This document shows positions 4,419-20,563 of a DNA stretch of 23,399 nt, piece after piece. The stretch is from a virus: the IMG/VR virus record IMGVR_UViG_3300027747_000235, positions 1 to 23,399 of that record; one strand, written 5' to 3'. Under the pieces are notes generated by a model. The model worked only from the letters and a program-made list of their open reading frames with translations, did no database searches and was not told where the DNA came from. The first letter of the stretch is position 1; every line of letters starts with the position of its first letter. Both the position numbers and the translations under genes were made by a program.

Positions 4419-4655
4419 ATGATGAATGAAGATAATGATGTAGTTGTTGATTTAGCTAAAATACAACCTACGGGTATCAATACTCAAAAATCTTACAAAT
4501 ATGAAACTCCACCAGAACCGAATTGGAAATTCTATTTCGGCGATAGCATCAAAAACAATATTCATTACAATGTATATCTTGAGAATCCACCTAATCGATT
4601 CCAACGGTGGCTCTGTTATAAAGCATTTCGATTGACATGGGAACAAATTAAATGA
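4419..4655 (+). CDS. small hypothetical phage protein
   Basis: This is a 78-aa protein. Two ATGs (4419 and 4422) follow directly on the upstream TGA and either could start it. The C-terminal half contains NPPNRFQRWLCYKAFRLTWEQIK, a Trp/Arg-rich pattern seen in small uncharacterised phage proteins. No signal peptide, membrane segment or motif is visible. The stop overlaps the next start (ATGA), so it is coupled to the first copy of the MNER family. Confidence 0.65.
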   Translation: MMNEDNDVVVDLAKIQPTGINTQKSYKYETPPEPNWKFYFGDSIKNNIHYNVYLENPPNRFQRWLCYKAFRLTWEQIK

Positions 4656-4846
4656 ACGAACGACTTAAAGAGTTGGCTAGAGAAGCCGAACTGTTAGTAT
4701 ATAACCCTAACGGCGTTCCAACTAAACTAGAAAAGTTTGCCGAGTTGATTGTGCGAGAATGTGCAGAAGTTGGTAACTCTGGTGACCCTCTGCAAGATGG
4801 TGAGATTGCGAGAATGATTAAACAACATTTTGGAATTGAATCGTGA
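4652..4846 (+). CDS. MNER-family small protein, copy 1
   Basis: This 64-aa protein starts MNERLKELAREAELLVYN, has the core KFAELIVRECAEVG and ends IKQHFGIES. It is one of four paralogues in 1.5 kb (also at 4843, 5273 and 5858). All share a helical start (MN.RI.ELA.QAG), the core KFAELIVREC and the end HFG(V/I)E, with variable middle parts. The family is common in uncultured aquatic phages and its function is unknown. The start overlaps the upstream stop as ATGA. The GGA codon of the final HFG motif provides a GGAA Shine-Dalgarno for the GTG start of copy 2. Confidence 0.8.
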   Translation: MNERLKELAREAELLVYNPNGVPTKLEKFAELIVRECAEVGNSGDPLQDGEIARMIKQHFGIES

Positions 4847-5109
4847 ACGAACGAATTAAACAACTTGCCGAACAGGCTGGTGACTATGTTAATGAAGTAT
4901 ATACTCCACCTGTTAGAAGCAAGACTCCTGGCAAGATTTGGGAAGATGGACATGTGGATTGGTATACACAATTTAATGAAAAGTTCGCCGAGTTGATTGT
5001 GCGAGAGTGCGCCCGCATTGGTGAATTGAAAGAACAAGGTTATGAAGATTATGATCCTGATCTATCTGTTGGTTGGTATATGAAACAACATTTTGGAGTT
5101 GAACAATGA
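4843..5109 (+). CDS. MNER-family small protein, copy 2
   Basis: This 88-aa protein uses a GTG start that overlaps the stop of copy 1 (GTGA). It keeps the family plan: MNERIKQLAEQAGDYVNEVY, a variable middle with Lys/Pro/Trp, KFAELIVRECARIG, and the end YMKQHFGVEQ. The core is conserved at DNA level as well as protein level, which points to recent duplication or recombination. The codons for FGV (TTTGGAGTT) form a GGAG ribosome-binding site for the gene that starts at 5106. Confidence 0.8.
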   Translation: MNERIKQLAEQAGDYVNEVYTPPVRSKTPGKIWEDGHVDWYTQFNEKFAELIVRECARIGELKEQGYEDYDPDLSVGWYMKQHFGVEQ

Positions 5110-5276
5110 ACGAAAAATATATGGACTTACAACAAAAAGTGGTTAATGCAGTATTAGAAATGCAGAAAGGGTCATCACTAAAAGACTTTTTAACAGATAA
5201 AGAAATTGAAGAATCGTTATCAATGTTTGCTGATGTGTTAATTTCTTTAGGTATTCAAATCGAAAGTGAAGAATGA
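5106..5276 (+). CDS. 56-aa helical hypothetical protein inside the MNER array
   Basis: ATG at 5106 overlaps the stop of MNER copy 2 (ATGA) and follows GGAG at a good distance. The 56-codon frame starts MNEKYMDLQQKVVNAVLEMQ and ends SLGIQIESEE, and its stop overlaps the next start (ATGA). It shares the first three residues with the MNER proteins but lacks KFAELIVREC and HFGVE, so it is either a diverged member or an unrelated insertion. Predicted to be mostly helical. Function unknown. Confidence 0.7.
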   Translation: MNEKYMDLQQKVVNAVLEMQKGSSLKDFLTDKEIEESLSMFADVLISLGIQIESEE

Positions 5277-5500
5277 ACCTAAGAATTATTGAAATGGCCA
5301 AACAATGCGGCGATTGGAATGGACAAACGCTGGAAATGAATGATGTTGGAATTGCAAAGTTCGCCGAGTTGATTGTGCGGGAATGTTTGACACAGGCTGA
5401 CGCTCTCCGTGATTCTCTTGAATCAGAGGGCGAAGATCAACAGTCATTAGGTGCCGCTTGGGTAGGACTGGCAATTGCAAGACATTTTGGAGTTGAATGA
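5273..5500 (+). CDS. MNER-family small protein, copy 3 (variant N-terminus)
   Basis: This 75-aa protein begins MNLRIIEMAKQCGDWNG instead of MNERIKELAEQAG, but keeps KFAELIVREC and the end AIARHFGVE. Its middle is acidic (DSLESEGEDQQS). The start overlaps the previous stop (ATGA). The FGV codons again supply GGAG for the next gene at 5497. The two extra Cys residues (positions 11 and about 38) are not shared by all copies. Unknown function; probably the same kind of small helical protein as the other copies. Confidence 0.75.
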   Translation: MNLRIIEMAKQCGDWNGQTLEMNDVGIAKFAELIVRECLTQADALRDSLESEGEDQQSLGAAWVGLAIARHFGVE

Positions 5501-5874
5501 TGAAAATCAGATATAGCACTAATTGGATGGGCCCAGTCAGTATGAATTGGTATGAACAACGCGGCCTTGTTGAAACTAAAATAATCACACTGGAAGAGGA
5601 CTCTACTTTTAGTGGACTTAAAGCCGGCGATCAATATGAGTCTGAAGAAATTACCACACATTATAGTTGTGGTAGAATAGATGTGAGAGGAACTGACGAT
5701 CCACATGGTGATGAAATAGGTGTGCCGCCAATGCAGAGTGATGATTGGGCTAGATTTGGTAATTGGCTTGAAACTTTTGAAACTGATGATGTTTGGACAC
5801 TAGACCAGTTAGTGTGGACGTATGAAAGAAATAATCCAAAAATTACATGGGACGATTATGAACGAACGAATTAA
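5497..5874 (+). CDS. conserved phage protein of unknown function (MKIRYSTNWMGP family)
   Basis: This is a 125-aa protein starting M(M)KIRYSTNWMGPVSMNWYEQRGL; ATGs at 5497 and 5500 are both possible. It contains YSCGRIDVRG, the PPMQSDDWARFGNWLETFET block and ends WTYERNNPKITWDDYERTN. From memory it belongs to a family seen in many phage genomes that is always uncharacterised. It is rich in Trp, Asp and Tyr, with no membrane segment. The last 17 nt overlap the next gene, which starts in another frame at 5858. Placement between two MNER copies suggests the cluster grows by cassette insertion. Confidence 0.8.
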   Translation: MMKIRYSTNWMGPVSMNWYEQRGLVETKIITLEEDSTFSGLKAGDQYESEEITTHYSCGRIDVRGTDDPHGDEIGVPPMQSDDWARFGNWLETFETDDVWTLDQLVWTYERNNPKITWDDYERTN

Positions 5875-6118
5875 AGAACTGGCTGAACAGGCTGGATTAA
5901 AATATTACAACTGGATCACAAATGAATCCAATATAAACGATGGTGATTTTAAGTATCCAAGATTAGAAGATTATGAAAAGTTCGCTGAGTTGATTGTACA
6001 AAAATGTATTAGTCAAATCGCTTTAATTGGCATAAGCAACTTTGAAAACGAAGATATTACGTGGACCGTTGAAACCGCTATAACCAATATTGAAGAACAT
6101 TTCGGTGTTGAGGAATGA
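5858..6118 (+). CDS. MNER-family small protein, copy 4
   Basis: This 86-aa protein starts MNERIKELAEQAGLKYYNW at ATG 5858, inside the end of the upstream gene and after GGGA. An upstream in-frame ATG at 5822 would add 12 residues that do not match the family start, so it is rejected. The core is KFAELIVQKC and the end is EEHFGVEE. Its core DNA block has diverged more than in the other copies. The stop overlaps the next start (ATGA). Confidence 0.8.
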   Translation: MNERIKELAEQAGLKYYNWITNESNINDGDFKYPRLEDYEKFAELIVQKCISQIALIGISNFENEDITWTVETAITNIEEHFGVEE

Positions 6119-9701: not shown

Positions 9702-10406
9702 ATGGCTAAGACAGTTAGAAGAAAAACAGCAGCCGCACAGGCTCAATCGCAACATTTTTCCCTAAAACAAGTTCAACCTCTAACAAAGAATCAGACAAAA
9801 ACATTTGAAGAATATGATAAAGGTAATCATCTAGTTCTTGCAGGATCTGCTGGTACTGGTAAATCATTCCTTGCGTTGTACCTATCTCTTAAAGATGTTC
9901 TTGCTGCAGGCTCTTACTACGAACGAATTGTTATCATTCGTTCAGCAGTACCATCAAGAGATTTAGGTTTCGTACCTGGTACGTTAGAAGAGAAAGCAAA
10001 GATCTATCAAGAACCATACATGAATATCGTCAACGAGTTGGTTGGTCGTGGCGATGCATGGCACTTTCTTTACAATAAAGAAATTCTAGAATTTCAAACT
10101 ACATCATTTCTACGCGGATTGACATTTAGAGATTGTATTATTATCTTTGATGAGTTTCAATCTGCAACATTTCATGAAATCGATTCTGTCTTGACAAGAA
10201 TCGGAGAAAACTGTAGATTCATTCTATGTGGTGATTTCGCACAGAATGATCTAAACAACAAAAAAGAGAGATCTGGCTTCATTGATGCAGTCAGAATCTT
10301 AGATAAAATTGAGGATATTTCACACATTCAATTCGGTATTGATGATATTGTCAGATCGGGGTTCGTGCGTAGATATTTAACTGAAAAACAAAACTTAGGA
10401 ATATAA
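9702..10406 (+). CDS. phoH: PhoH-like P-loop ATPase
   Basis: This 234-aa protein has Walker A GSAGTGKS at residues 48-55, the PhoH-typical stretch VIIRSAVPSRDLGFVPGTLEEK at 77-98, and Walker B IIIFDEFQ at 146-153, followed by a helicase-like motif (TRIGENCRFILCGDFAQND). PhoH proteins are ATPases linked to RNA metabolism; many phage copies exist and are not tied to phosphate control. The N-terminus (about 20 residues) is basic and Gln-rich. The start follows AAGGGA. The stop overlaps the ATG of the nuclease gene (TAATG), so the two are co-translated. Confidence 0.92.
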   Translation: MAKTVRRKTAAAQAQSQHFSLKQVQPLTKNQTKTFEEYDKGNHLVLAGSAGTGKSFLALYLSLKDVLAAGSYYERIVIIRSAVPSRDLGFVPGTLEEKAKIYQEPYMNIVNELVGRGDAWHFLYNKEILEFQTTSFLRGLTFRDCIIIFDEFQSATFHEIDSVLTRIGENCRFILCGDFAQNDLNNKKERSGFIDAVRILDKIEDISHIQFGIDDIVRSGFVRRYLTEKQNLGI

Positions 10407-11065
10407 TGTTTACACATTGCCCACCGATGGTGATTGAGAATCTAAACACCGAAACTGTTGATGACAAACGATACTATGTAACACCATCTGGTCAACGATT
10501 GCCATCTGTTACTACTGTTCTTGGTGCCATGAAGAAGAAAGAAATCATGGCATGGCGCCGTAGAGTTGGTGAAGCGGAAGCAAATCGAGTTTCTAAACTT
10601 GCAACTGGTCGTGGTAATCGAGTACATACACTTGCTGAAAAGTATTTGATGAATGAATCGATTGAATGGAAGAAAGAAATGCCAGATGCGATTGAGATGT
10701 TTCAATCGATTGTACCACACTTCGACAAGATCAATAACATCCATTATATGGAACAAGCACTATGGTCTGAAAAGATTGGTCTTGCAGGTCGTGTTGACTT
10801 GATTGCAGAGTGGGAAGGTAAACTATCGGTTATCGACTTTAAAACTTCTAAACGTATCAAGACAGAAGATAAGATTCAAGATTACTTTGCACAATGTGTT
10901 GCGTATGCAATGATGTATGAAGAACGTGTTGGCGCACCTATCGATCAGATTGTAGTTTTGATGGCAGTCGAGAATGAACAACCACTTATCTTTGTAAAAG
11001 AGACAAAAGACTATGTTGATACGTTATATGAACACATTGAATTTTATAAATCAAATAAATATTAA
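10406..11065 (+). CDS. PD-(D/E)XK exonuclease (RecB/MGME1-like)
   Basis: This 219-aa protein shows the nuclease core: RGNRVHTLAEKYL at 69-81, E116 in MEQALWS, AGRVDLIAEW at 127-136 with D131, and VIDFKTSKR at 142-150 giving D144 and K146. The helix QCVAYAMMYEE follows. This arrangement (E, D, DxK, Q..Y) fits single-strand exonucleases of the RecB/Cas4/MGME1 group, likely acting in phage DNA replication, recombination or host DNA breakdown. The N-terminal segment YYVTPSGQRLPSVTTVLG is also typical. Coupled to phoH by TAATG. Confidence 0.85.
   Translation: MFTHCPPMVIENLNTETVDDKRYYVTPSGQRLPSVTTVLGAMKKKEIMAWRRRVGEAEANRVSKLATGRGNRVHTLAEKYLMNESIEWKKEMPDAIEMFQSIVPHFDKINNIHYMEQALWSEKIGLAGRVDLIAEWEGKLSVIDFKTSKRIKTEDKIQDYFAQCVAYAMMYEERVGAPIDQIVVLMAVENEQPLIFVKETKDYVDTLYEHIEFYKSNKY
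11054..11061 (+). promoter_or_regulatory. late-promoter-like AATAAATA before the adhesin gene
   Basis: AATAAATA is a 7/8 match to the T4 late consensus and ends 27 nt before the ATG at 11089, which also has AAAGGA. It overlaps the last codons of the nuclease gene. Confidence 0.45.
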
Positions 11066-11088: not shown

Positions 11089-14000
11089 ATGGCTTTACCC
11101 GCATCAGGTGCTATATCAATGAATGATATTCGTACAGAACTTGGATCATCTGGAACGATTAGTTTAAATGATTCTCCTGTTCGCGCTCTGGCAGGTAAAG
11201 GTGGTGCCGGCAGTTCTGTTATATTGCCAACAGATTTTTATGGTAAATCTAATGCACCTGTTCCAGCGCCGGCACCTTCAATTCCAGGTGGTATATCTGC
11301 ATCTAATGCATCATGGGGTGGTGCTGGATACGGTGGTACTGCAAACTATCGTGGTGGATATAGTGCGTGTTCTTCACACAATGGTAATGGTGGAGGCGGT
11401 GGTGCAAGTCCATTAGGCGGTAATGGCGCTGACTGGACTGCATTCGTTAACACAGAAGGCACATTTGGTTCTGGTGGTTCTGGCGGTGGTATTACATCTG
11501 CTGGTGTTGCCGGTGTAGGAACACAATCTGGATATTCATCTACTGTAAATGCAACAGGTTATGGTAATGGTGGTGGTAGTGTTGAAACAGACGGAATCAA
11601 TAACTCTTTGACAAACACAAGGGGTGGTAAGGGAACTGGTGGTCTTGTCAGGATTTCTATTTTACGTGGTGGTTATGCTTTCACTTCAACTGATGTAACA
11701 AATTTTAGTGCAACAAGAATTGTATCTGGTAGTAATAACACAGAAATAGAATGGGACAATGCTTCAGGCACTAAAACTAGTGATGCAGTTTATAATGGTG
11801 CTTTGGTTGGTTCTTTTACAGTACCAACAGGTGTTACTGCAATCGGTATCCATTTAATTGCAGGAGGTGGCGGTGGTGCCATTGGTCCATGCGTTAACGC
11901 TGGCGGAGGCGGAGGCGGTGCTGTATATTATCAAAATTATGCCGTTACGCCTGGTACAACTTATGTAATTAAAGTTGGTGCAGGTGGACAAGGTGGATTA
12001 CAAAATACAGCTAGATCATCTGCTGGTGGTCCACCATATGGTGTTACCGAAGCACCATGGCGTGGAGGTAAAACTTCATTCTGTAATTCAGGTGGTACTG
12101 AAATATTATATGCAACGGGTGGTAATACAAGACCAGATGATTGTGCATCCGTCACTAATGCTGATTCTTCCGCATCAAACACTGCCGATTCGGCAGGAAC
12201 TAATGCATCTGTGCCAAGTCTTCCTGGAATTTTATGTTCTGTTACACCTAATACTTTTTCAGTTGATGAGGGTTCTAGTGACACGTTCAATGTAACTTCT
12301 AACGTCATAAATGGTACTACTTTATATTGGACAATTAATAATGTAACTACAAGTTCGGCAGACTTTACTGCAACGAGTGGTAGTTTTGTTATGTCAAGTG
12401 GTTCATCTAGTTTCTCTGTATTTGCGGTTGCTGATTCAACAACAGAGGGGACAGAAACATTTACTGTTAGTGTGAGAACAGGATCAACATCGGGTACTGT
12501 AATTGGAACAAGTTCTTCGATTTCTATTAACGATATATCTACTGGTGCAGCACCAACAGTACCGGGTGTGCCAACTATTGGTACTGCAACATCCACTGGT
12601 CAAACAACTGCGACTGTTGCATTTACTGCACCTGCATCAAATGGTGGTGCAGCAATTACTGGTTATACTGTTGCTGTGTATAATTATCCATCAGGAACAT
12701 CAACGGGTATAACTGCGACTGGATCTACTTCACCAATTAGTGTAACTGGATTAACCGCGGGCACATCTTATACGTTTAAAGTAAAAGCAACTAATTCTGT
12801 TGGCGATAGTGCATATAGTTCTGCAAGTAATCAAATAACAACAACGGCGGCATCTACAGTTCCTGGCGCGCCAACTATTGGTACTGCAATCGCTACTGGA
12901 CAAAATAGTGCAACAGTTGCATTTACACCTCCTGCATCAAATGGTGGCGCGGCAATCACATCTTACACAGTAACATCTTCTCCTGGTGGTATTACTGCAA
13001 CAGGAGCAACTTCACCAATTACTATAACTGGATTGAGTTCAGGTACTGCATATACATTTACAGTATATGCAACCAATTCAGTAGGTAACAGTACACCAAG
13101 TTCTGCGAGTAATTCAACTGTAACTTCAACTCCTGCTGTTCCACAGAAGCCAACTGGTGTTAGCGCAACTCCAACAGGAACTACAACGGCAACTGTTTCA
13201 TTTACTGCACCGAGTAATTCTGGTGGTTCGCCAATCACGCAATATATCGCAACATCTTCTCCTGGTGGTATCACAGGAACATTGAATCAGGCAGGATCTG
13301 GTACTATTACTGTATCTGGGTTAACTGCAGCAACATCATATACTTTCACAGTTAAAGCAGTAAACTCTGCTGGGCAAAGTGATCCTAGTGATCCTAGTAT
13401 TTCAATAACAACAAATTCTATTGCAACAGTTCCTGGTGCACCAACAATCACAGGCGCAGTCGCAACTGGCACAACAACTGCCGACGTTTCATTCTCTGCG
13501 CCATCATCTAATGGTGGTTCACCAATTACTTCCTACACTATATTATCCAGTCCTGGTAGTATTACTGCAACATTATCACAAGCTGGTAGTGGTACATTTA
13601 ATGTTACAGGACTAACATCTGGAACAACATACACGTTTACTATTAAAGCAACAAACGCTGTTGGTGACAGTTCATATAGTTCCGCTAGTTCTTCGATAAC
13701 TACAACATCATCATCTACGGTTGGATTTATTGGTGGCACCGCACCATATGCATACATAAATTCGACTGGTTCAGATATTCCTTTGGCGAGCACATCTCTC
13801 AATTTAACTTTCACCAATCAGGGCGTTGTGACTATACTTGATACTACAGGAGCACCAGGTTTTTTAAGTAATCTGCCGACTCAATGGATCACACCAACGG
13901 GTGGAGGTATAGGTGGTAGTTATGATATAAGAATAAGATCTATGACAGGCACATGTACTGGCGGGAATAGATCAAATTACTCAATATTTGGAGTAGGATC

Positions 14001-14208
14001 AATTAAAACAGATCCAAATTCTTATACAACTCCAACCCCATGGGTTTCATTATCTTCAAGTCAAACTCTGAGTGTTGCTATAGGTAGTTCTCCTGTAACG
14101 GGATGTGGTACTGATATCACTTTCGACGTGGAGATAGCGCCTAGTGGTGATCATACTAATTCTGTTAGAGGAACTTTTAATTTATTCATCGGCGGTGGCA
14201 CCGCATAA
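11089..14208 (+). CDS. modular tail fibre/adhesin-like virion protein
   Basis: This is a 1039-aa protein. Residues 1-54 (MALPASGAISMNDIRTELG ... VILPTDFYGKS) match a start common to phage tail-associated proteins. Residues about 60-190 and 245-345 are Gly-rich (runs such as AGGGGGA), as in T4-type receptor-binding adhesins. Residues about 384-484 (FSVDEGSSDTFNV ... ADFTATSGSF ... TEGTETFTVSV) look like a Calx-beta domain. Four fibronectin type III modules cover about 490-875. A C-terminal domain of about 160 residues with four Cys follows and is the most likely tip. There is no signal peptide or catalytic motif. Likely role: surface binding of host or glycans as part of the tail. Preceded by a late-like motif. 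Confidence 0.8.
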   Translation: MALPASGAISMNDIRTELGSSGTISLNDSPVRALAGKGGAGSSVILPTDFYGKSNAPVPAPAPSIPGGISASNASWGGAGYGGTANYRGGYSACSSHNGNGGGGGASPLGGNGADWTAFVNTEGTFGSGGSGGGITSAGVAGVGTQSGYSSTVNATGYGNGGGSVETDGINNSLTNTRGGKGTGGLVRISILRGGYAFTSTDVTNFSATRIVSGSNNTEIEWDNASGTKTSDAVYNGALVGSFTVPTGVTAIGIHLIAGGGGGAIGPCVNAGGGGGGAVYYQNYAVTPGTTYVIKVGAGGQGGLQNTARSSAGGPPYGVTEAPWRGGKTSFCNSGGTEILYATGGNTRPDDCASVTNADSSASNTADSAGTNASVPSLPGILCSVTPNTFSVDEGSSDTFNVTSNVINGTTLYWTINNVTTSSADFTATSGSFVMSSGSSSFSVFAVADSTTEGTETFTVSVRTGSTSGTVIGTSSSISINDISTGAAPTVPGVPTIGTATSTGQTTATVAFTAPASNGGAAITGYTVAVYNYPSGTSTGITATGSTSPISVTGLTAGTSYTFKVKATNSVGDSAYSSASNQITTTAASTVPGAPTIGTAIATGQNSATVAFTPPASNGGAAITSYTVTSSPGGITATGATSPITITGLSSGTAYTFTVYATNSVGNSTPSSASNSTVTSTPAVPQKPTGVSATPTGTTTATVSFTAPSNSGGSPITQYIATSSPGGITGTLNQAGSGTITVSGLTAATSYTFTVKAVNSAGQSDPSDPSISITTNSIATVPGAPTITGAVATGTTTADVSFSAPSSNGGSPITSYTILSSPGSITATLSQAGSGTFNVTGLTSGTTYTFTIKATNAVGDSSYSSASSSITTTSSSTVGFIGGTAPYAYINSTGSDIPLASTSLNLTFTNQGVVTILDTTGAPGFLSNLPTQWITPTGGGIGGSYDIRIRSMTGTCTGGNRSNYSIFGVGSIKTDPNSYTTPTPWVSLSSSQTLSVAIGSSPVTGCGTDITFDVEIAPSGDHTNSVRGTFNLFIGGGTA
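12550..13710 (+). repeat. four tandem FN3-coding modules
   Basis: Four modules of about 280-300 bp start near 12559, 12856, 13138 and 13429. Each encodes VPG.PT(I)......T..(A/D)VSF.AP..NGG..I..Y ... GL..GT.YTF.VKA.N..G.S..S. Modules 1, 2 and 4 are closest at DNA level; module 3 starts VPQKPTG. The pattern suggests internal duplication, with recombination able to change the number of modules. Confidence 0.8.
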
Positions 14209-14212
14209 TCTC

Positions 14213-14241
14213 TTGACATTCACGCCAAGTTCTGATATACT
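14213..14241 (+). promoter_or_regulatory. sigma70 promoter for the tmRNA gene
   Basis: TTGACA (14213-14218), a 17-bp spacer and TATACT (14236-14241), starting 5 nt after the adhesin gene. Expected transcription start is near 14248. CTAAATA (14240-14246), the late-like motif seen at 7445, overlaps the -10 box, so both early and late transcription are conceivable. It may also drive the downstream lysis-type gene. Confidence 0.85.
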
Positions 14242-14320
14242 AAATACTTCTCAATGGTAGTAAACTGATTTTTAGAAAGGTATTTCGGACGGGGAGGGCA
14301 GTTCTCCCCCGGGTCCACCA

Positions 14321-14386
14321 AAAGTATACTAAGGCGATGCATAGCCGTGGTACGTGTTACCTCTGTAAGTGTGGTGTACTTTTGAT
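14321..14386 (+). other. intervening segment of the pre-tmRNA
   Basis: This 66-nt segment lies between the encoded CCA end and the 5' end of the coding piece. Its ends pair: AAAAGTATAC (from the last A of ACCA) with GTGTACTTTT, 10 bp with one G-U, continuing the acceptor helix after a small internal loop. A small hairpin GGTA-CGTGT-TACC lies inside. In known two-piece tmRNAs such a segment is removed by tRNA-type processing at both ends. Confidence 0.75.
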
Positions 14387-14520
14387 GGGCCCGAATTAGG
14401 TTCGACGGGATAATAAGTATAATTATTGGCTACTCGACATATCAGTCGTTAAAAATAAATAAAGTAAACGCAAATGATAGCGAATACGCATTAGCAGCCT
14501 AAACACTGCTTAGGGTTTTT

Positions 14521-14553
14521 GGTAGTTTATCCTCGTAACAGAATTAAACTACC
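14521..14553 (+). other. 9-bp hairpin at the 3' side of the tmRNA coding piece
   Basis: GGTAGTTTA (14521-14529) pairs with TAAACTACC (14545-14553) around a 15-nt loop. It lies after the tag stop helix and may be part of a pseudoknot-like 3' domain of the coding piece. It may also stabilise the RNA end just before the ribosome-binding site of the next gene. Confidence 0.6.
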
Positions 14554-14578
14554 CCTTCAAAACTCGATAAGGAAACGA

Positions 14579-15067
14579 ATGTTACACAAGACTATCAAAG
14601 TCTTGTTAGGAACATTTCTCATCTTTGGTTTAATGAATGCTACAGCAGTAGCAAGTGCGAGAGAAACTTATTCTTTAGTTCCTAACATACAGAAACAGTT
14701 AAATTGTCTAACAAACAATATTTTTTACGAAGCAGAATCAGAATCTTTTAAAGGTAAACTGGCAGTTGCACAAGTCACGATGAATAGAGTCCGATCAGGT
14801 CTATTCATGAATGATATATGTAAAACTGTATACCAAAAGAGAAAGAAAACTTGTCAATTCTCATGGGTTTGTGATAAGTCTAAACGGCGCATACCGATTG
14901 ACTCACAAGAATACATAGATTCTAGGGCAGCAGCAGAGAAAGTTCTGTTCGACGGATACCGCTTGACAAAACTCAACGATGCGTTGTATTATCATGCTGT
15001 GTACGTTGATCCCCGTTGGAACAAACGCAGAATCATCAGAATTGGTAAACATATATTTTATGAATAG
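14579..15067 (+). CDS. SleB-type cell-wall hydrolase (endolysin) with signal peptide
   Basis: This 162-aa protein starts at ATG 14579 after GGAA; the longer frame from 14519 would begin inside the tmRNA. Residues 1-28 form a signal peptide: basic start (MLHKTIK), hydrophobic core (VLLGTFLIFGLM) and an AVASA cleavage site. The rest matches the hydrolase_2/SleB family: NNIFYEAESES with the likely catalytic E51, AVAQVTMNRVRSGLF, CQFSWVCD and YYHAVYVDPRW. These enzymes cut the glycan strands of peptidoglycan. A secreted form would act in the periplasm, so it may serve in lysis. No holin is obvious next to it, and export by the host Sec system could make one less necessary. Confidence 0.85.
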   Translation: MLHKTIKVLLGTFLIFGLMNATAVASARETYSLVPNIQKQLNCLTNNIFYEAESESFKGKLAVAQVTMNRVRSGLFMNDICKTVYQKRKKTCQFSWVCDKSKRRIPIDSQEYIDSRAAAEKVLFDGYRLTKLNDALYYHAVYVDPRWNKRRIIRIGKHIFYE

Positions 15068-15669: not shown

Positions 15670-15894
15670 ATGCCCACTAAAGAAGAATGTAGAGTGTTCT
15701 CTGCAATCATTGAAGGACTAGTCCAGAACAATAAAGATATGACATATATCGATGCAATCGTAGAACATTGCAAAGATACTGGATTTGAAGTTGAAATGGC
15801 TGCAACTCTACTGACTGCATCACTCAAAGCAAAGATCACCGAAGAAGCAGAATCACTTAATTTAATTAAAAAGACTAATCGATTACCTATATGA
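15670..15894 (+). CDS. 33: late-transcription coactivator (gp33-like)
   Basis: This 74-aa protein starts MPTKEECRVFSAIIEGLV after AGGAAAT. The segments YIDAIVEHCKDTGFEVEMAATLLT and LKAKITEEAESLNLIKK...RLPI fit the short gp33 family of T4-like marine phages. In T4, gp33 binds RNA polymerase and the sliding clamp gp45 and, with sigma factor gp55, activates late promoters. The protein is shorter than T4 gp33 (112 aa), as usual outside the T4 core. Its presence agrees with the TATAAATA-like late promoters in the window. The stop overlaps the gp59 start (ATGA). Confidence 0.78.
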   Translation: MPTKEECRVFSAIIEGLVQNNKDMTYIDAIVEHCKDTGFEVEMAATLLTASLKAKITEEAESLNLIKKTNRLPI

Positions 15895-16499
15895 ATGTTG
15901 AATCCAGTGGATTTGAATGTTATGCACTATTTCATGCATTGAAGTTACACTTTACTTCGAAGTATGATTTTGTAAAATACTCTGGTAAAACAAATGTAAC
16001 ACAAGACTCTTTTATGATTAGAAAGGACAAGTTTACTTTCTATAAGTTATCTCGTAAATACAATAAAGATGATATGTTTGGTTTCTTTGTTTCTAACTTG
16101 TTAGAGAAACCAAAACTATGGTCGGGTGATCTTCTATCCGAAGACGCTGAGTCTACTTTTAAGGTATGGCAAAAAACACAACAGTCTCTCTTCTATATCT
16201 TCCAACAGGACCTATCCACTCTCATGGAGGATGTAGACTCTCCACAACAGTTGTTAAAAGTGGTTGACGGAGAGTATCCTTTGTTGTATAATAACTATGT
16301 GCAGTCGAGAATCAAACTTGAAACGGTGATGATCATGAATCAATTCCTAAACTTCTTTCCTATGTGGACCAAAAGGGTTGATGATGATTTGATCTTTCCA
16401 GATTTTATTCAAAAATGCACAAAATATGCACCGTTTTTGAACTATGATGCGACTAAATACAAACACGCACTCAAGTCACAAATGTGTGCAGTAGTTTAA
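15891..16499 (+). CDS. 59: helicase loader (gp59-like)
   Basis: This 202-aa protein is close in length to T4 gp59 (217 aa) and shares its plan: an N-terminal HMG-like region with Y-D-x-x-K-Y (KYDFVKYSG), RKDKFTFYKLSRKY and FVSNLL, then an all-helical C-terminal part (IKLETVMIMNQFLNFF). T4 has RRDKYFFQKLSEKY and ALIFISNL at the same places. Gp59 binds forked DNA and gp32 and loads helicase gp41. It is directly upstream of gp32, as in T4, and is coupled to gp33 by ATGA. Confidence 0.9.
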   Translation: MNVESSGFECYALFHALKLHFTSKYDFVKYSGKTNVTQDSFMIRKDKFTFYKLSRKYNKDDMFGFFVSNLLEKPKLWSGDLLSEDAESTFKVWQKTQQSLFYIFQQDLSTLMEDVDSPQQLLKVVDGEYPLLYNNYVQSRIKLETVMIMNQFLNFFPMWTKRVDDDLIFPDFIQKCTKYAPFLNYDATKYKHALKSQMCAVV

Positions 16500-16533: not shown

Positions 16534-17397
16534 ATGAACTTCGCAAGTCTTAAAAAATCATCTGGTAACTTTGACAAACTTACCAAAGCCATTGAACAAC
16601 TCAATGCAACACCTGCATCTAAAGATGACAAGTTCTGGAAACCAGAAGTTGACAAAGCAGGTAACGGATACGCAGTTATCCGGTTTCTTCCCGCACCTGA
16701 AGTAGATGGAGAAGAAGGTCTTCCATGGGTGAAAGTATTCAATCACGGCTTTCAAGGTCCTGGTGGTTGGTATATTGAGAACTCACTCACTACGCTCAAT
16801 CAAAAAGATCCAGTCTCTGAGTATAACACTCAACTTTGGAATTCTGGCGTAGAAGCAAATAAAGAGATTGCGCGTAAACAAAAACGTCGCCTTTCGTATA
16901 TCTCTAACATCTATGTTGTTGAAGATTCTAAGAATCCTCAGAATGAAGGTAAAGTCTTTCTCTTTAAGTTTGGTGCAAAGATCTTTGATAAGATCAATGA
17001 AGCAATGAATCCTGCGTTTGAGGATGAGAAAGCAATGAATCCGTTTGACTTCTGGACTGGTGCCAATTTTAAACTCAAGATTCGCAAAGTCGAAGGTTAT
17101 CAGAATTATGATAAGTCTGAGTTTGCTGCACCTGGTCTTTTGCTTGCTGATGATGACAAACTTGAACAGATTTGGAAATCGGAAAACTCTTTGAAAGAGC
17201 ATCTCGATCCATCTAACTTTAAGTCGTATGATGAATTGAAAGCTAAACTTAATAAAGTATTAGGTTTAGATGGTGGTGCACCTGTTGCACGAACCACTGT
17301 TGAACAGGCAAAGGCAGCACCTAAACGTGTTGAACCAACCGTTGAAGAAGATGATGATGACATGGACTACTTCAGCAAACTCGCTGAAGAAGCATGA
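16534..17397 (+). CDS. 32: single-stranded DNA-binding protein (gp32-like), zinc ligands missing
   Basis: This 287-aa protein has a basic N-terminal segment (about 1-20) for cooperative binding, the core with FNHGFQGPGGWYIEN, RLSYISNIYVVED...NPQNEGKVFLFKFGAKIFDKI and WTGANFKLKIRKVEGYQNYDKSEF, and an acidic C-terminal tail (EEDDDDMDYFSKLAEEA) for contact with other replication proteins. T4 gp32 binds zinc through His64 and Cys77, 87 and 90. Here the His of NHGF is kept, but the three Cys positions are Asn/Ser-type residues, and the whole protein has no Cys. It coats ssDNA in replication and recombination. Clear AAGGA ribosome-binding site. Confidence 0.95.
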   Translation: MNFASLKKSSGNFDKLTKAIEQLNATPASKDDKFWKPEVDKAGNGYAVIRFLPAPEVDGEEGLPWVKVFNHGFQGPGGWYIENSLTTLNQKDPVSEYNTQLWNSGVEANKEIARKQKRRLSYISNIYVVEDSKNPQNEGKVFLFKFGAKIFDKINEAMNPAFEDEKAMNPFDFWTGANFKLKIRKVEGYQNYDKSEFAAPGLLLADDDKLEQIWKSENSLKEHLDPSNFKSYDELKAKLNKVLGLDGGAPVARTTVEQAKAAPKRVEPTVEEDDDDMDYFSKLAEEA

Positions 17398-17417: not shown

Positions 17418-17443
17418 AAAGGGAGCTTCGGCTCCCTTTTTTT
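17418..17443 (+). terminator. strong Rho-independent terminator after gp32
   Basis: AAAGGGAGC-TTCG-GCTCCCTTT is a perfect 9-bp stem with a UUCG loop, and a run of T follows on the plus strand. It ends the gp32 operon and lies between convergent genes. The minus-strand stop at 17442 overlaps its T-run. Confidence 0.95.
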
Positions 17444-18773
17444 ATAGAAATCCGGCGCGATCTAATGCGTTATAGATATGCACCAATACTGGTGTATTAT
17501 CTCTTTGTGATGCAGTCGTTGATGCAGCACTCTTTTCATTACCCATGTTGTTAGTTGTATTAGTAACAATAGGACCAGATGATCCACCACCTGATGCTGT
17601 TGATTGTTCCATATTTAAATCAATATTTTGATTAGTTGTTTCAGATACACCAGATGATGTTGGCATAGGAGTCATTGGTGGTGTACCAGATGAATCACCA
17701 GATGATGATCCCGAAGGTGACATACTAGATCCAGAACCACCAGATGATGATTCAGATCCGACAGGTGATGCGGTTGGACTAGATGCTGCAGCACCACCAA
17801 CGCCTGCGGCACTTGATGATATCTGTTTGGCAGTTTGACTACCACCTGTTTCCGATTTAGCTGCCTTGACTTGTTCTTCAGTCATACCGGCAATTCTCAT
17901 TAATTCTTTTTTGCCACCGGCCATCAATATATCTTTTTGAGTACCCGAGACTAATAATTCTTTTGCATATTCTGGTGTAATTTGACCTGCGATTCTTTTA
18001 ACATATGCTTCGCCGCCTTCATTCTTCAATTCCGCAGGATTGTTTCGTTTTAACATCTCATTAGCTTCATCTTTCTTCAATGAAAATAAACTATTCATCC
18101 AAGCTGCGAATTCATTAAGAGCAACAAATCCAAGAATTGCCATACCTACTGGTCCAGTGAAGAATGTCACTAATCGACCAAAGAATGGTATCATTTTCTT
18201 TATAGTTGATAACCAAGGAATACCATCTAACATACTCATCAACATATCAAGAAAACTAGATCCACCAGTCTTACCACCAACTGGAGTTGCAGTACCAGAT
18301 GAAGCAGTAAATGATTTTAATACTTTTAGAAATTGTTGATGTCTTTTCTCATCTTCATTCATTGCCTCTTCTTGAAAGTTCTTTTTAACTTCCATAGTTC
18401 TAACATCAATCTCGTGACTCTTTTGTAGAAATGCTAGAATTCTATTCAGAACATCAACAGAACCACCACCAATGTTGCCTGTCTCTTTACCTAATGCGGT
18501 AGCAGTACCTTTACCTGCAAAGTAACTAATATCTTCTTTACTGCGACCCATCATTCTACCAAGCAATGCAGGCGCCAATGAACCACCGCCAGTTAGTTTC
18601 TTTGCAATGTTCAATGGATCATATCTTTCTTTGACACCCATTGCTTTTGCTTTCATTCTATCTGATAATGCACCTTTAATAGATGATCCAACACCTTGAC
18701 CGGACATAATTCGTCCAGTAATCAATGATGATAGTTTTTGTCCTCTAATTGAACTTGCTGTTGAATAGTCCAT
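17442..18773 (-). CDS. tail/hub protein with hydrophobic middle (candidate tape measure, paralogue B)
   Basis: This is a 443-aa protein. Residues about 15-85 (SSIKGALSDRMKAKAMG.KERYDPLNIAKKL ... LLGRMMGRSKEDISYFA) are clearly paralogous to the N-terminus of the upstream 596-aa protein, and the C-terminal TNTTNNMGNEKSAASTT resembles its VNNTTNVLNKETTVASS. The middle differs: residues about 195-232 (PFFGRLVTFFTGPVGMAILGFVALNEF) are strongly hydrophobic, as in tape-measure proteins, followed by a mixed region and a Ser/Gly/Pro-rich linker (about 325-400). Its ATG overlaps the upstream stop (TAATG). It ends at the gp32 terminator. Structural role in the tail is inferred from order and architecture. 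Confidence 0.6.
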   Translation of the reverse strand: MDYSTASSIRGQKLSSLITGRIMSGQGVGSSIKGALSDRMKAKAMGVKERYDPLNIAKKLTGGGSLAPALLGRMMGRSKEDISYFAGKGTATALGKETGNIGGGSVDVLNRILAFLQKSHEIDVRTMEVKKNFQEEAMNEDEKRHQQFLKVLKSFTASSGTATPVGGKTGGSSFLDMLMSMLDGIPWLSTIKKMIPFFGRLVTFFTGPVGMAILGFVALNEFAAWMNSLFSLKKDEANEMLKRNNPAELKNEGGEAYVKRIAGQITPEYAKELLVSGTQKDILMAGGKKELMRIAGMTEEQVKAAKSETGGSQTAKQISSSAAGVGGAAASSPTASPVGSESSSGGSGSSMSPSGSSSGDSSGTPPMTPMPTSSGVSETTNQNIDLNMEQSTASGGGSSGPIVTNTTNNMGNEKSAASTTASQRDNTPVLVHIYNALDRAGFL

Positions 18774-20563
18774 TATTGTCTCTTGTATTGTGGATTATCT
18801 GAACCTCTGTCTGAACTTGACGCAACTGTTGTTTCTTTGTTTAAAACATTTGTTGTATTGTTTACTACAACTGGTTGAGCGTTTGAACTTTCATTCAATG
18901 ACTTTTTCATATCGACGTTATCAACTGATGTTGATGCTAATTTATCACCATCTTTCTTTAGCATTTCTTGCGCTAGAGTTTGTTCTTTGATGAATCTTTC
19001 TTGGACACTTTTTCTAACTGATTCGTTGCTTGATCCAAACTTTGTTGCTCTTATTTTATAAACATTTTCTATTATTTTTGATGGATTCGCATTTATTCCT
19101 CCAGAATCTTCAATCGCTTTTTTAAATATGCTTACAGCTCCACCAGAACCATGTTGCACAACTGTACTAAAATAAACGTCTTTTATTGCTGATGATTGTT
19201 GAAGAACATCATATTTTGTTAATTTAAATAATTTTGCAGCTGATGGTTCATATTGTGATTTTTCAATAAAATCATGTTGTAATTTTTCAAAAGTTGATCC
19301 TTTCTCATTAGCTATTTTTTTCCATTCATCAACAAATGGACCTTTATTTGATCCTGTATCAGCTGGTCCTGCAGATTTTAATCTAGAAACTATATCAGTT
19401 TCTCCTCTAGCTTCTGCATATTTTAAGAAAGCTGCCATTCCACCAACTTTAGCTGCTATTTGGTATGTTCCATAACTAGTACCACCTGTAGAGTCATACC
19501 CAACAATCGCAGCAGCATTTTTTCTTCCTCCGGTTTCAAATTGACTACTTAATTTACCTAATTCTGTTGGCACTTTCTCTACCGTCGGTTTAGACACGGT
19601 TGGTGGTTTAACAGGCGCTGCAGTTGGTGGCTTAGTAACAGGTGGTGGTGCGGGTGCAGCAGAAGGAGGCGCAGATTCAGGTTTAGGAACTGGTTTAGCA
19701 GTCTCTACTGGTTTAACAGGCGGTTTGACAACTTCTGGTGGAGGTTTAACTACTTCTGGCGCTTTAACTGGTTCTACTGGTTTAGCAGGAGCAGGAGTTG
19801 GTTTAACTGGTTCTGGCGCTTTAACTGGTTCTACTGGTTTAGCAGGAGCGGGTGTAGGTTTAGCAGGTTCTACTGGTTTAACTGGTTCTACTGGTTTAGC
19901 AGGAGCAGGAGTAGGTTTAGCAGGTTCTGGCGCTTTAACTGGTTCTACTGGTTTAGCAGGAGCAGGAGTTGGTTTAGCAGGTTCTGGTTTCGGTGACACA
20001 CCAGGTTTAGGAGGTGTTGGCGGTTGCGCTTCTGGTGTTTTCTCTGCCGGTTTTGGTTTTGCAATTACTGCAACTGCTCGTCTATTTCGTTTTGTCGCTT
20101 CATTAAAGACATTCATCACTTCATCGTGGCGTCTTTGATTTGCTTGTTGTCTCTCATTCTCAAACTTAATTGAAGAATGATTGTCTTTGATCTGAGACTC
20201 ACGAGTCTTGACCATAAAAGAATAGATATTCTCTAGTATCTCTGTTGCTTTTCTAGAATCACCAGATCCATGACCTTGATTCATCACATTATCAAATCGG
20301 TGAATTCTTTTTCTATTCGCAAAGTAATCAATATCTTCTTTGCTTCGACCAGTCATTCTACCAAGTAATGCAGGACCTATTTTTGATCCACCAGTTAACT
20401 TAGATGCAATGTTCAACGGATCGAATTTCTCTTTAAGACCCATCATAGACGCCTGCATCCTATCAGATATGGCACCTTTAATAGAACCACCGGACATTAA
20501 ATTATTAACAATTAATGCCGATAGTCCTGTCTTTCTTGTTCTTGCCGCCTCGTGATAGTTCAT
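18773..20563 (-). CDS. tail/hub protein with Pro-rich repeat and lysozyme-like domain (paralogue A)
   Basis: This is a 596-aa protein. The N-terminal domain (about 1-85) is shared with the 443-aa neighbour. A helical part (100-165) follows, then a long Pro/Ala/Lys-rich stalk (170-330) with four 19-aa repeats at 193-268. Residues about 331-540 form a peptidoglycan-hydrolase-like domain: LSSQFETGG with probable catalytic E343, GGTSYGTYQIA at 360-370 and a helical remainder. The tail ends with VVVNNTTNVLNKETTVASSS. The likely role is a tail hub or tape-measure-type protein that helps cross the cell wall during DNA entry. The start overlaps the stop of the frameshift extension (ATGA). Confidence 0.65.
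   Translation of the reverse strand: MNYHEAARTRKTGLSALIVNNLMSGGSIKGAISDRMQASMMGLKEKFDPLNIASKLTGGSKIGPALLGRMTGRSKEDIDYFANRKRIHRFDNVMNQGHGSGDSRKATEILENIYSFMVKTRESQIKDNHSSIKFENERQQANQRRHDEVMNVFNEATKRNRRAVAVIAKPKPAEKTPEAQPPTPPKPGVSPKPEPAKPTPAPAKPVEPVKAPEPAKPTPAPAKPVEPVKPVEPAKPTPAPAKPVEPVKAPEPVKPTPAPAKPVEPVKAPEVVKPPPEVVKPPVKPVETAKPVPKPESAPPSAAPAPPPVTKPPTAAPVKPPTVSKPTVEKVPTELGKLSSQFETGGRKNAAAIVGYDSTGGTSYGTYQIAAKVGGMAAFLKYAEARGETDIVSRLKSAGPADTGSNKGPFVDEWKKIANEKGSTFEKLQHDFIEKSQYEPSAAKLFKLTKYDVLQQSSAIKDVYFSTVVQHGSGGAVSIFKKAIEDSGGINANPSKIIENVYKIRATKFGSSNESVRKSVQERFIKEQTLAQEMLKKDGDKLASTSVDNVDMKKSLNESSNAQPVVVNNTTNVLNKETTVASSSDRGSDNPQYKRQ
19760..19987 (-). repeat. four tandem 57-bp repeats coding a Pro-rich stalk
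   Basis: Four units of 57 bp code PEPAKPTPAPAKPVEPVKA with few changes (unit 2 ends KP, unit 3 starts VEP, unit 4 has PVKP). The reading frame is kept because the unit is a multiple of three. Partial units follow on the C-terminal side (EVVKPPPEVVKPP). Copy number may vary between related phages. Confidence 0.9.

Follow-up and report, generated by a model that had tools for sequence, protein, structure and literature searches.

The stretch of DNA analyzed here (the window) covers an entire IMG/VR record (23,399 bases) and represents a 23.4 kb fragment of a T4-like phage genome. Genes for gp32, gp59, gp33, gp2, gp4, and tail-tube and baseplate proteins were found, in agreement with the T4-like assignment first made from the letters, and the gene content also includes PhoH and a CobS-like ATPase. 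A circularly permuted tmRNA gene lies at ~14248-14559 (Table 1). The 3' half of the acceptor stem is encoded upstream of the coding half, with an intervening sequence (IVS) between them, and the features that define a tmRNA are present: a tRNA-like domain with alanine identity and a tag reading frame with a resume codon and a stop codon.

Table 1. The permuted tmRNA gene of the window, its parts and its neighbors.
Feature	Positions	Strand	Basis or remarks
PD-(D/E)XK-type exonuclease (phrog_298)	10406..11065	+	Upstream border of the conserved slot
1039-aa tail protein, four fibronectin III domains	11089..14208	+	Within the exonuclease-tmRNA-gp33 slot here
Sigma-70-type promoter, TTGACA-17-TATACT, TG before -10	14213..14241	+	11/12 consensus match; predicted start ~14248
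Acceptor piece, ~65-73 nt (5' helix strand, GGAC, T arm, acceptor 3' strand, A73, CCA)	14248..14320	+	RF04321 and RF01850 alignments, ARAGORN; 5' end putative
T arm, 6-bp stem GGGGAG/CTCCCC, loop GGCAGTT	14291..14309	+	Model alignment, phage/alphaproteobacterial comparison
Acceptor stem 3' strand CGGGTCC	14310-14316	+
A73	14317	+
Encoded CCA	14318-14320	+
IVS, 66 nt	14321..14386	+	Sequence; removal in maturation predicted
Coding piece, ~169 nt (acceptor 5' strand, D-like GGTTCGAC, pseudoknot region, tag frame, 3' hairpin)	14387..14559	+	ARAGORN, Rfam
Acceptor 5' strand GGGCCCG	14387-14393	+	Base-by-base check
D-like GGTTCGAC	14399-14406	+	Base-by-base check
Tag frame ANDSEYALAA + TAA, resume codon GCA	14470..14502	+	Base-by-base check, ARAGORN
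3' hairpin GGTAGTTTA / TAAACTACC, loop TCCTCGTAACAGAAT	14521..14553	+	Stem changed on both sides in contig L057
SleB-like cell-wall hydrolase (PF07486)	14579..15067	+	Next gene downstream of the tmRNA
gp33 late-transcription coactivator (PF16805, phrog_254)	15670..15894	+	Downstream slot border
gp59 helicase loader (phrog_269)	15891..16499	+
gp32 single-strand DNA-binding protein (phrog_224)	16534..17397	+

A sequence-only reading of the window had placed a two-piece tmRNA at 14248-14555 and had suggested a covariance search with the Rfam models. Both methods used here recover the gene. ARAGORN calls a permuted tmRNA at 14227-14593 with the tag ANDSEYALAA, and RF04321 (tmRNA_permuted) matches over its full length with 126 bits (E 1.2e-24, cut-off 47). 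RF01850 (beta_tmRNA) follows with 100.4 bits (E 8.9e-30, cut-off 84) and RF01849 (alpha_tmRNA) with 99.3 bits, and these scores are far above chance. The cyanobacterial permuted type is not indicated, as RF01851 (cyano_tmRNA) reaches 20.9 bits, under its cut-off of 70. Assigning an alpha or beta origin from model score was considered and rejected, the two scores giving no separation. The coordinates of that reading also proved right when checked base by base. A blastn search of the tmRNA region against phage records gave no match because the region is too diverged.

The two acceptor strands pair at 7/7 positions, including G3-U70, and A73 follows, so that the alanine identity that had been read from the letters holds. 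The T arm is non-canonical, and its loop (GGCAGUU) resembles the GGCAGUA loop of Alphaproteobacteria; by sequence comparison, the same type of T loop occurs in alphaproteobacterial two-piece tmRNAs. The ends of the IVS (14321-14329 with 14374-14382) form a 9-bp stem that prolongs the acceptor stem, and among the matches listed such an extending stem is found in 91% of 107 phage IVSs compared with 13% of controls. The tag has the ordinary host-type form A-N-D...A-L-A-A; the sequence-only reading had considered that the phage tmRNA might stand in for that of the host once host DNA is broken down, or label selected proteins by means of a different tag. Cofolding of the two pieces was only modestly better than that of shuffled sequences (z -1.8), with a program that cannot model pseudoknots.

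Permuted tmRNAs occur widely among viral contigs. One degenerate sequence pattern, which fixed part of the tag, matched at least 120 viral contigs, and ARAGORN confirmed a permuted gene in ~100 of the 120 listed (its total of 105 includes three loci from the window itself). The parsed pattern matches listed and the loci found via gp32 gave a final set of 120 unique phage permuted tmRNAs, parsed with a scheme that awarded points for G3-U70, A73 and CCA without requiring them. Among the matches listed, G3-U70 and A73 are each present in 120/120, and CCA and a full 7-bp acceptor stem are each present in 118/120. Acceptor pairs 4-6 and the T-stem pairs display two-sided changes with pairing kept in 119-121 of 121 sequences, again among the matches listed, whereas shuffling gave means of 51-89 for the variable pairs. 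In 119 of the 120 (among the matches listed), the tag frame ends with Ala-Ala followed by a stop codon, a count that is partly biased by the pattern-fixed tag. Four different codons are used at each of the last two tag alanines with the Ala-Ala end kept (among the matches listed), and this codon usage was not itself forced by the pattern. The central part of the tag shows free variation from phage to phage.

Close relatives point in the same direction. Contig L057 encodes exonuclease, PhoH and gp59 proteins 99-100% identical to those of the window and specifies the same tag. At acceptor pair 6-67, C-G in the window is replaced by T-A in L057, a compensatory change. Compensatory changes on both sides are also seen in the stem of its 3' hairpin. 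The coding piece of L057 is 96% identical to that of the window, whereas its T arm and IVS are wholly different; the IVS is unrelated in close relatives of the window. In contig L020, the coding piece is 89% identical, compared with 57-70% DNA identity for the neighboring protein genes. In a permuted gene, the T arm, acceptor 3' strand, IVS and acceptor 5' strand lie side by side, so that a single recombination event could exchange all of them as a cassette. Judged by these patterns of change, the window sequence is evolving as a functional tmRNA would.

The position of the gene is also conserved. Among the matches listed, the order exonuclease, tmRNA, gp33/gp59 on one strand was found at 55/55 loci with both neighbors (window included), and loci with one neighbor have the same order in 20/20 and 24/25 cases. 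A SleB-like hydrolase lies near most of the phage tmRNAs among the matches listed. In a separate, gp32-based sample of 30 slot-spanning contigs, which leans towards relatives of the window, a permuted tmRNA was found in 21 (16 by ARAGORN and five more by Rfam). The other 9/30 have no tmRNA by ARAGORN and Rfam, and therefore the gene is not essential to the group. The exonuclease and gp33 genes of Synechococcus phage WH25-B adjoin without a tmRNA. Distances between tmRNAs track those of the exonuclease, gp59 and gp32 (Mantel r 0.54, 0.48 and 0.34; p 0.001), and inheritance is therefore largely vertical. The fixed slot by gp33 and the occurrence in highly divergent T4-like phages suggest that the tmRNA is a standing part of these genomes.

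The predicted sigma-70-type promoter upstream of the window's gene is also kept in L057. Sites scoring at least 11/12 occur upstream of 25/115 phage tmRNAs (22%) among the matches listed, compared with 1.7% of random places (Fisher p 8e-16). Boxes of the T4 late type, resembling TATAAATA, are likewise found upstream of 22% of the 115 phage tmRNAs among the matches listed, compared with 1.5% of random places. Phage tmRNA genes thus often appear to have their own promoter, of an early type in some phages and of a late type in others. Where one phage has a sigma-70 site and another a late box, the timing of tmRNA expression may differ between them. A gene for SmpB was found in none of the 28 phage records searched, 26 of which have a tmRNA, and host SmpB would therefore be needed.

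The sequence-only reading knew of no permuted tmRNA in a T4-like phage, and this claim of novelty is not supported. The two-piece tmRNA of Melnitz, a T4-like phage of OM43 (Methylophilales), has been described together with 53 unique two-piece tmRNA structures among sequenced, mostly aquatic, phages, and the publication also covers Pelagibacter phage Mosig (Buchholz et al., 2022; PMC9004378). Both are T4-like aquatic phages with a permuted tmRNA like that of the window, which adds to the known set. In Mosig (MT647606), the gene is annotated as SsrA and occupies the same slot, downstream of a PD-(D/E)XK nuclease and directly upstream of gp33. The Mosig tmRNA is alpha-like by model, and the Melnitz tmRNA was grouped with Alphaproteobacteria by its authors (PMC9004378), whereas the alpha and beta models fit the window's gene equally well and its 10-aa tag is of the beta type. 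For Melnitz and Mosig, a glutamine riboswitch has been reported adjacent to ssrA, a feature that the authors do not regard as defining (PMC9004378); in the window, no Rfam riboswitch was found at the gathering threshold. Mosig also has a manA RNA motif (RF01745) upstream of a rubrerythrin gene (contig L199, 8264-8471). A third example, Pelagibacter phage HTVC008M (KC465899), has a permuted tmRNA at 145161-145370 (90.6 bits) between the exonuclease and gp33, of the alpha type and with the tag ANFNEYALAA in place of the window's ANDSEYALAA. This gene (6162-6371 of contig L322) is without annotation in the GenBank record.

Counting all forms, phages contribute only 79 sequences to the 2025 tmRNA database, which holds 11,946 permuted tmRNAs. 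According to the accompanying paper, permuted genes in bacteria are found mainly in Alphaproteobacteria, Betaproteobacteria and Cyanobacteria (PMC11915505). The window's gene shares features with two of these types. Like the betaproteobacterial type (RF01850, 100.4 bits), it has an ANDxxxALAA tag and a coding piece with a hairpin towards its 3' end. Unlike that type, it has the alpha-like T loop, and the hairpin-loop core CCTCGTAACAGAA, present in 44/120 phage tmRNAs among the matches listed, was found in 0/41 bacterial tmRNAs parsed. It also matches RF01849 (99.3 bits) and shares its T-loop type with the alphaproteobacterial tmRNAs, whose tags are mostly ANDN... and ~12 aa long, in contrast to 10 aa in the window. 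The present analysis adds the scale of the phage set, its fixed slot, the enrichment of promoter-like sites upstream, the lack of an SmpB gene and the mismatch between phage and host gene form.

This mismatch is seen in cultured phages. Phages of Stenotrophomonas (Menderavirus), Xanthomonas, Pseudomonas aeruginosa (Samunavirus), Alcaligenes (Schitoviridae) and Synechococcus elongatus carry a permuted tmRNA like that of the window, and these tmRNAs are beta-like wherever a subtype model matched. They differ from the window's gene in their tags and, where the context was seen, in lying elsewhere in the genome, several of them in tRNA clusters. In the records of eight cultured phages (L392, L384, L386, L387, L388, L389, L390 and L391), the permuted gene is not annotated as a tmRNA; this set includes Stenotrophomonas phage Mendera and the Synechococcus phages BUCT-ZZ01 and S-CAM3, and in S-CAM3 the gene is labeled as a hypothetical protein. 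BUCT-ZZ01 also has, by ARAGORN, a tRNA with a CTA anticodon (L384, ~3664) that is a possible amber suppressor. Pseudomonas and the Xanthomonadales are known to have a one-piece tmRNA. The RF01851 model was over its cut-off in no control genome, S. elongatus among them, and tmRNA_permuted was over its cut-off in one control genome only, which is Caulobacter judging from the RF01849 result. The tmRNAs of the Stenotrophomonas, Xanthomonas, Pseudomonas and S. elongatus phages are permuted although these hosts are one-piece, and therefore the phage form is not a simple mirror of the host. The permuted tmRNA looks partly phage-borne and not simply copied from the present host.

Among bacteria, the Burkholderiales rarely have the permuted form, with a match of >100 bits in only 13/300 species, and most of the betaproteobacterial loci fetched are one-piece. 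Reading matches to the beta pattern in bacterial genomes as permuted genes was rejected, with 91 one-piece and 18 permuted. In a tree, most of the diversity lies in phage sequences, among which the permuted tmRNAs of Betaproteobacteria are scattered, but a topology that unites these bacterial sequences in one clade was not rejected (AU p 0.34). A permuted tmRNA is also carried by Cupriavidus replicons that are recorded as plasmids (0.58-1.67 Mb; L224, L220 and L291; accessions NZ_CP080769, NZ_CP016951 and NZ_CP073678). A second, weaker match in the genome of L220 suggests an additional one-piece copy. A tentative reading, which we consider possible but doubtful, is that the permuted tmRNA is a largely phage-borne lineage that has long circulated among phages, often in one-piece hosts, and that phages gave rise to the scattered two-piece tmRNAs of Betaproteobacteria, of which some lie on Cupriavidus plasmids. 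If true, the 'third lineage' of two-piece tmRNA would have its source in phages.

Almost all bacteria carry out ribosome rescue. The function best supported by the sequence evidence, above all four rivals, is ordinary trans-translation with host SmpB that frees ribosomes during infection, and we regard this as likely. Host RNA polymerase would transcribe the phage ssrA from its own sigma-70 promoter, and the precursor would fold with the IVS stem continuing the acceptor stem. Cleavage by host RNase P would then generate the 5' end of the coding piece, and enzymes of tRNA 3'-end maturation would trim to the CCA, resulting in two RNAs of ~70 and ~170 nt held by base pairs. Host alanyl-tRNA synthetase (AlaRS) would charge this RNA via G3-U70 and A73. 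With host SmpB and EF-Tu, the charged RNA would enter ribosomes stalled on broken mRNA, ANDSEYALAA would be added, and translation would stop at UAA, freeing the ribosome and marking the tagged fragment for host ClpXP-type proteases. The likely use to the phage would be a high rescue capacity while phage or defense nucleases produce truncated mRNA. Phages with their own rescue RNA suggest that infection can be limited by rescue capacity. Since the hosts of the Stenotrophomonas Menderavirus and of S. elongatus phage BUCT-ZZ01 are one-piece, the use of the phage tmRNA in infection is directly testable there.

For Melnitz, the authors suggested that the tmRNA either keeps the translation machinery running or tags host proteins (PMC9004378). 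Under the latter proposal, the phage tmRNA would mainly send host or defense proteins to proteolysis or recycle amino acids, and the complete tag with its protease-type LAA end is consistent with this. We consider it unlikely, since a tmRNA has no known means of choosing proteins beyond ribosome stalling, the window's tag is of the ordinary host type, and the middle of the tag is free to vary among phages.

An RNA that sequesters host SmpB, EF-Tu or AlaRS could instead inhibit host trans-translation. Such a decoy role has been proposed for the tRNA-like-only RNA of mycobacteriophage DS6A, and a DS6A-like molecule inhibits endogenous tmRNA (PMC4131195; PMC11915505). The DS6A-type RNA has no tag frame, whereas the window's gene has one. 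A reading frame would be superfluous in a decoy, yet the Ala-Ala and stop end is kept in nearly all phage tmRNAs among the matches listed while synonymous codons vary, evidence that is partly biased by the search pattern. A decoy role is thus very unlikely. The tmRNAs of Bxz1 and other mycobacteriophages and of Bacillus phage G have the standard gene order and are one-piece. As in the window, the ssrA genes of mycobacteriophages Bxz1 and others and of Bacillus phage G are phage-borne (PMC4131195).

Less probable still is a functionless passenger, a host ssrA acquired by chance. Absence from nine of 30 relatives would fit a dispensable passenger, but the slot fixed at all 55 loci (among the matches listed), the compensatory changes, the predicted promoters and the conservation of the coding piece above that of neighboring protein genes argue strongly against it. 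Finally, a bacterial ssrA placed in a phage contig by contamination or misassembly is refuted by L057, with the same gene between the same phage genes and with nearly identical exonuclease, PhoH and gp59 proteins, and by the cultured complete phages Mosig and HTVC008M, with a tmRNA in the same slot.

Two other regions of the window contain related adjacent genes. At 4652-6118, at least four small adjacent genes (4652, 4843, 5273 and 5822) share a motif like MNERIKELAEQAG...EKFAELIVREC and form a tandem family of paralogous short proteins, with no Pfam match. On the minus strand at 17442-20563, two adjacent genes encode proteins with similar N-termini (~60 aa), the second of which combines a long proline-rich repeat (APAKPVEPVK) with a C-terminal domain of the VgrG3-like type (PF21277).
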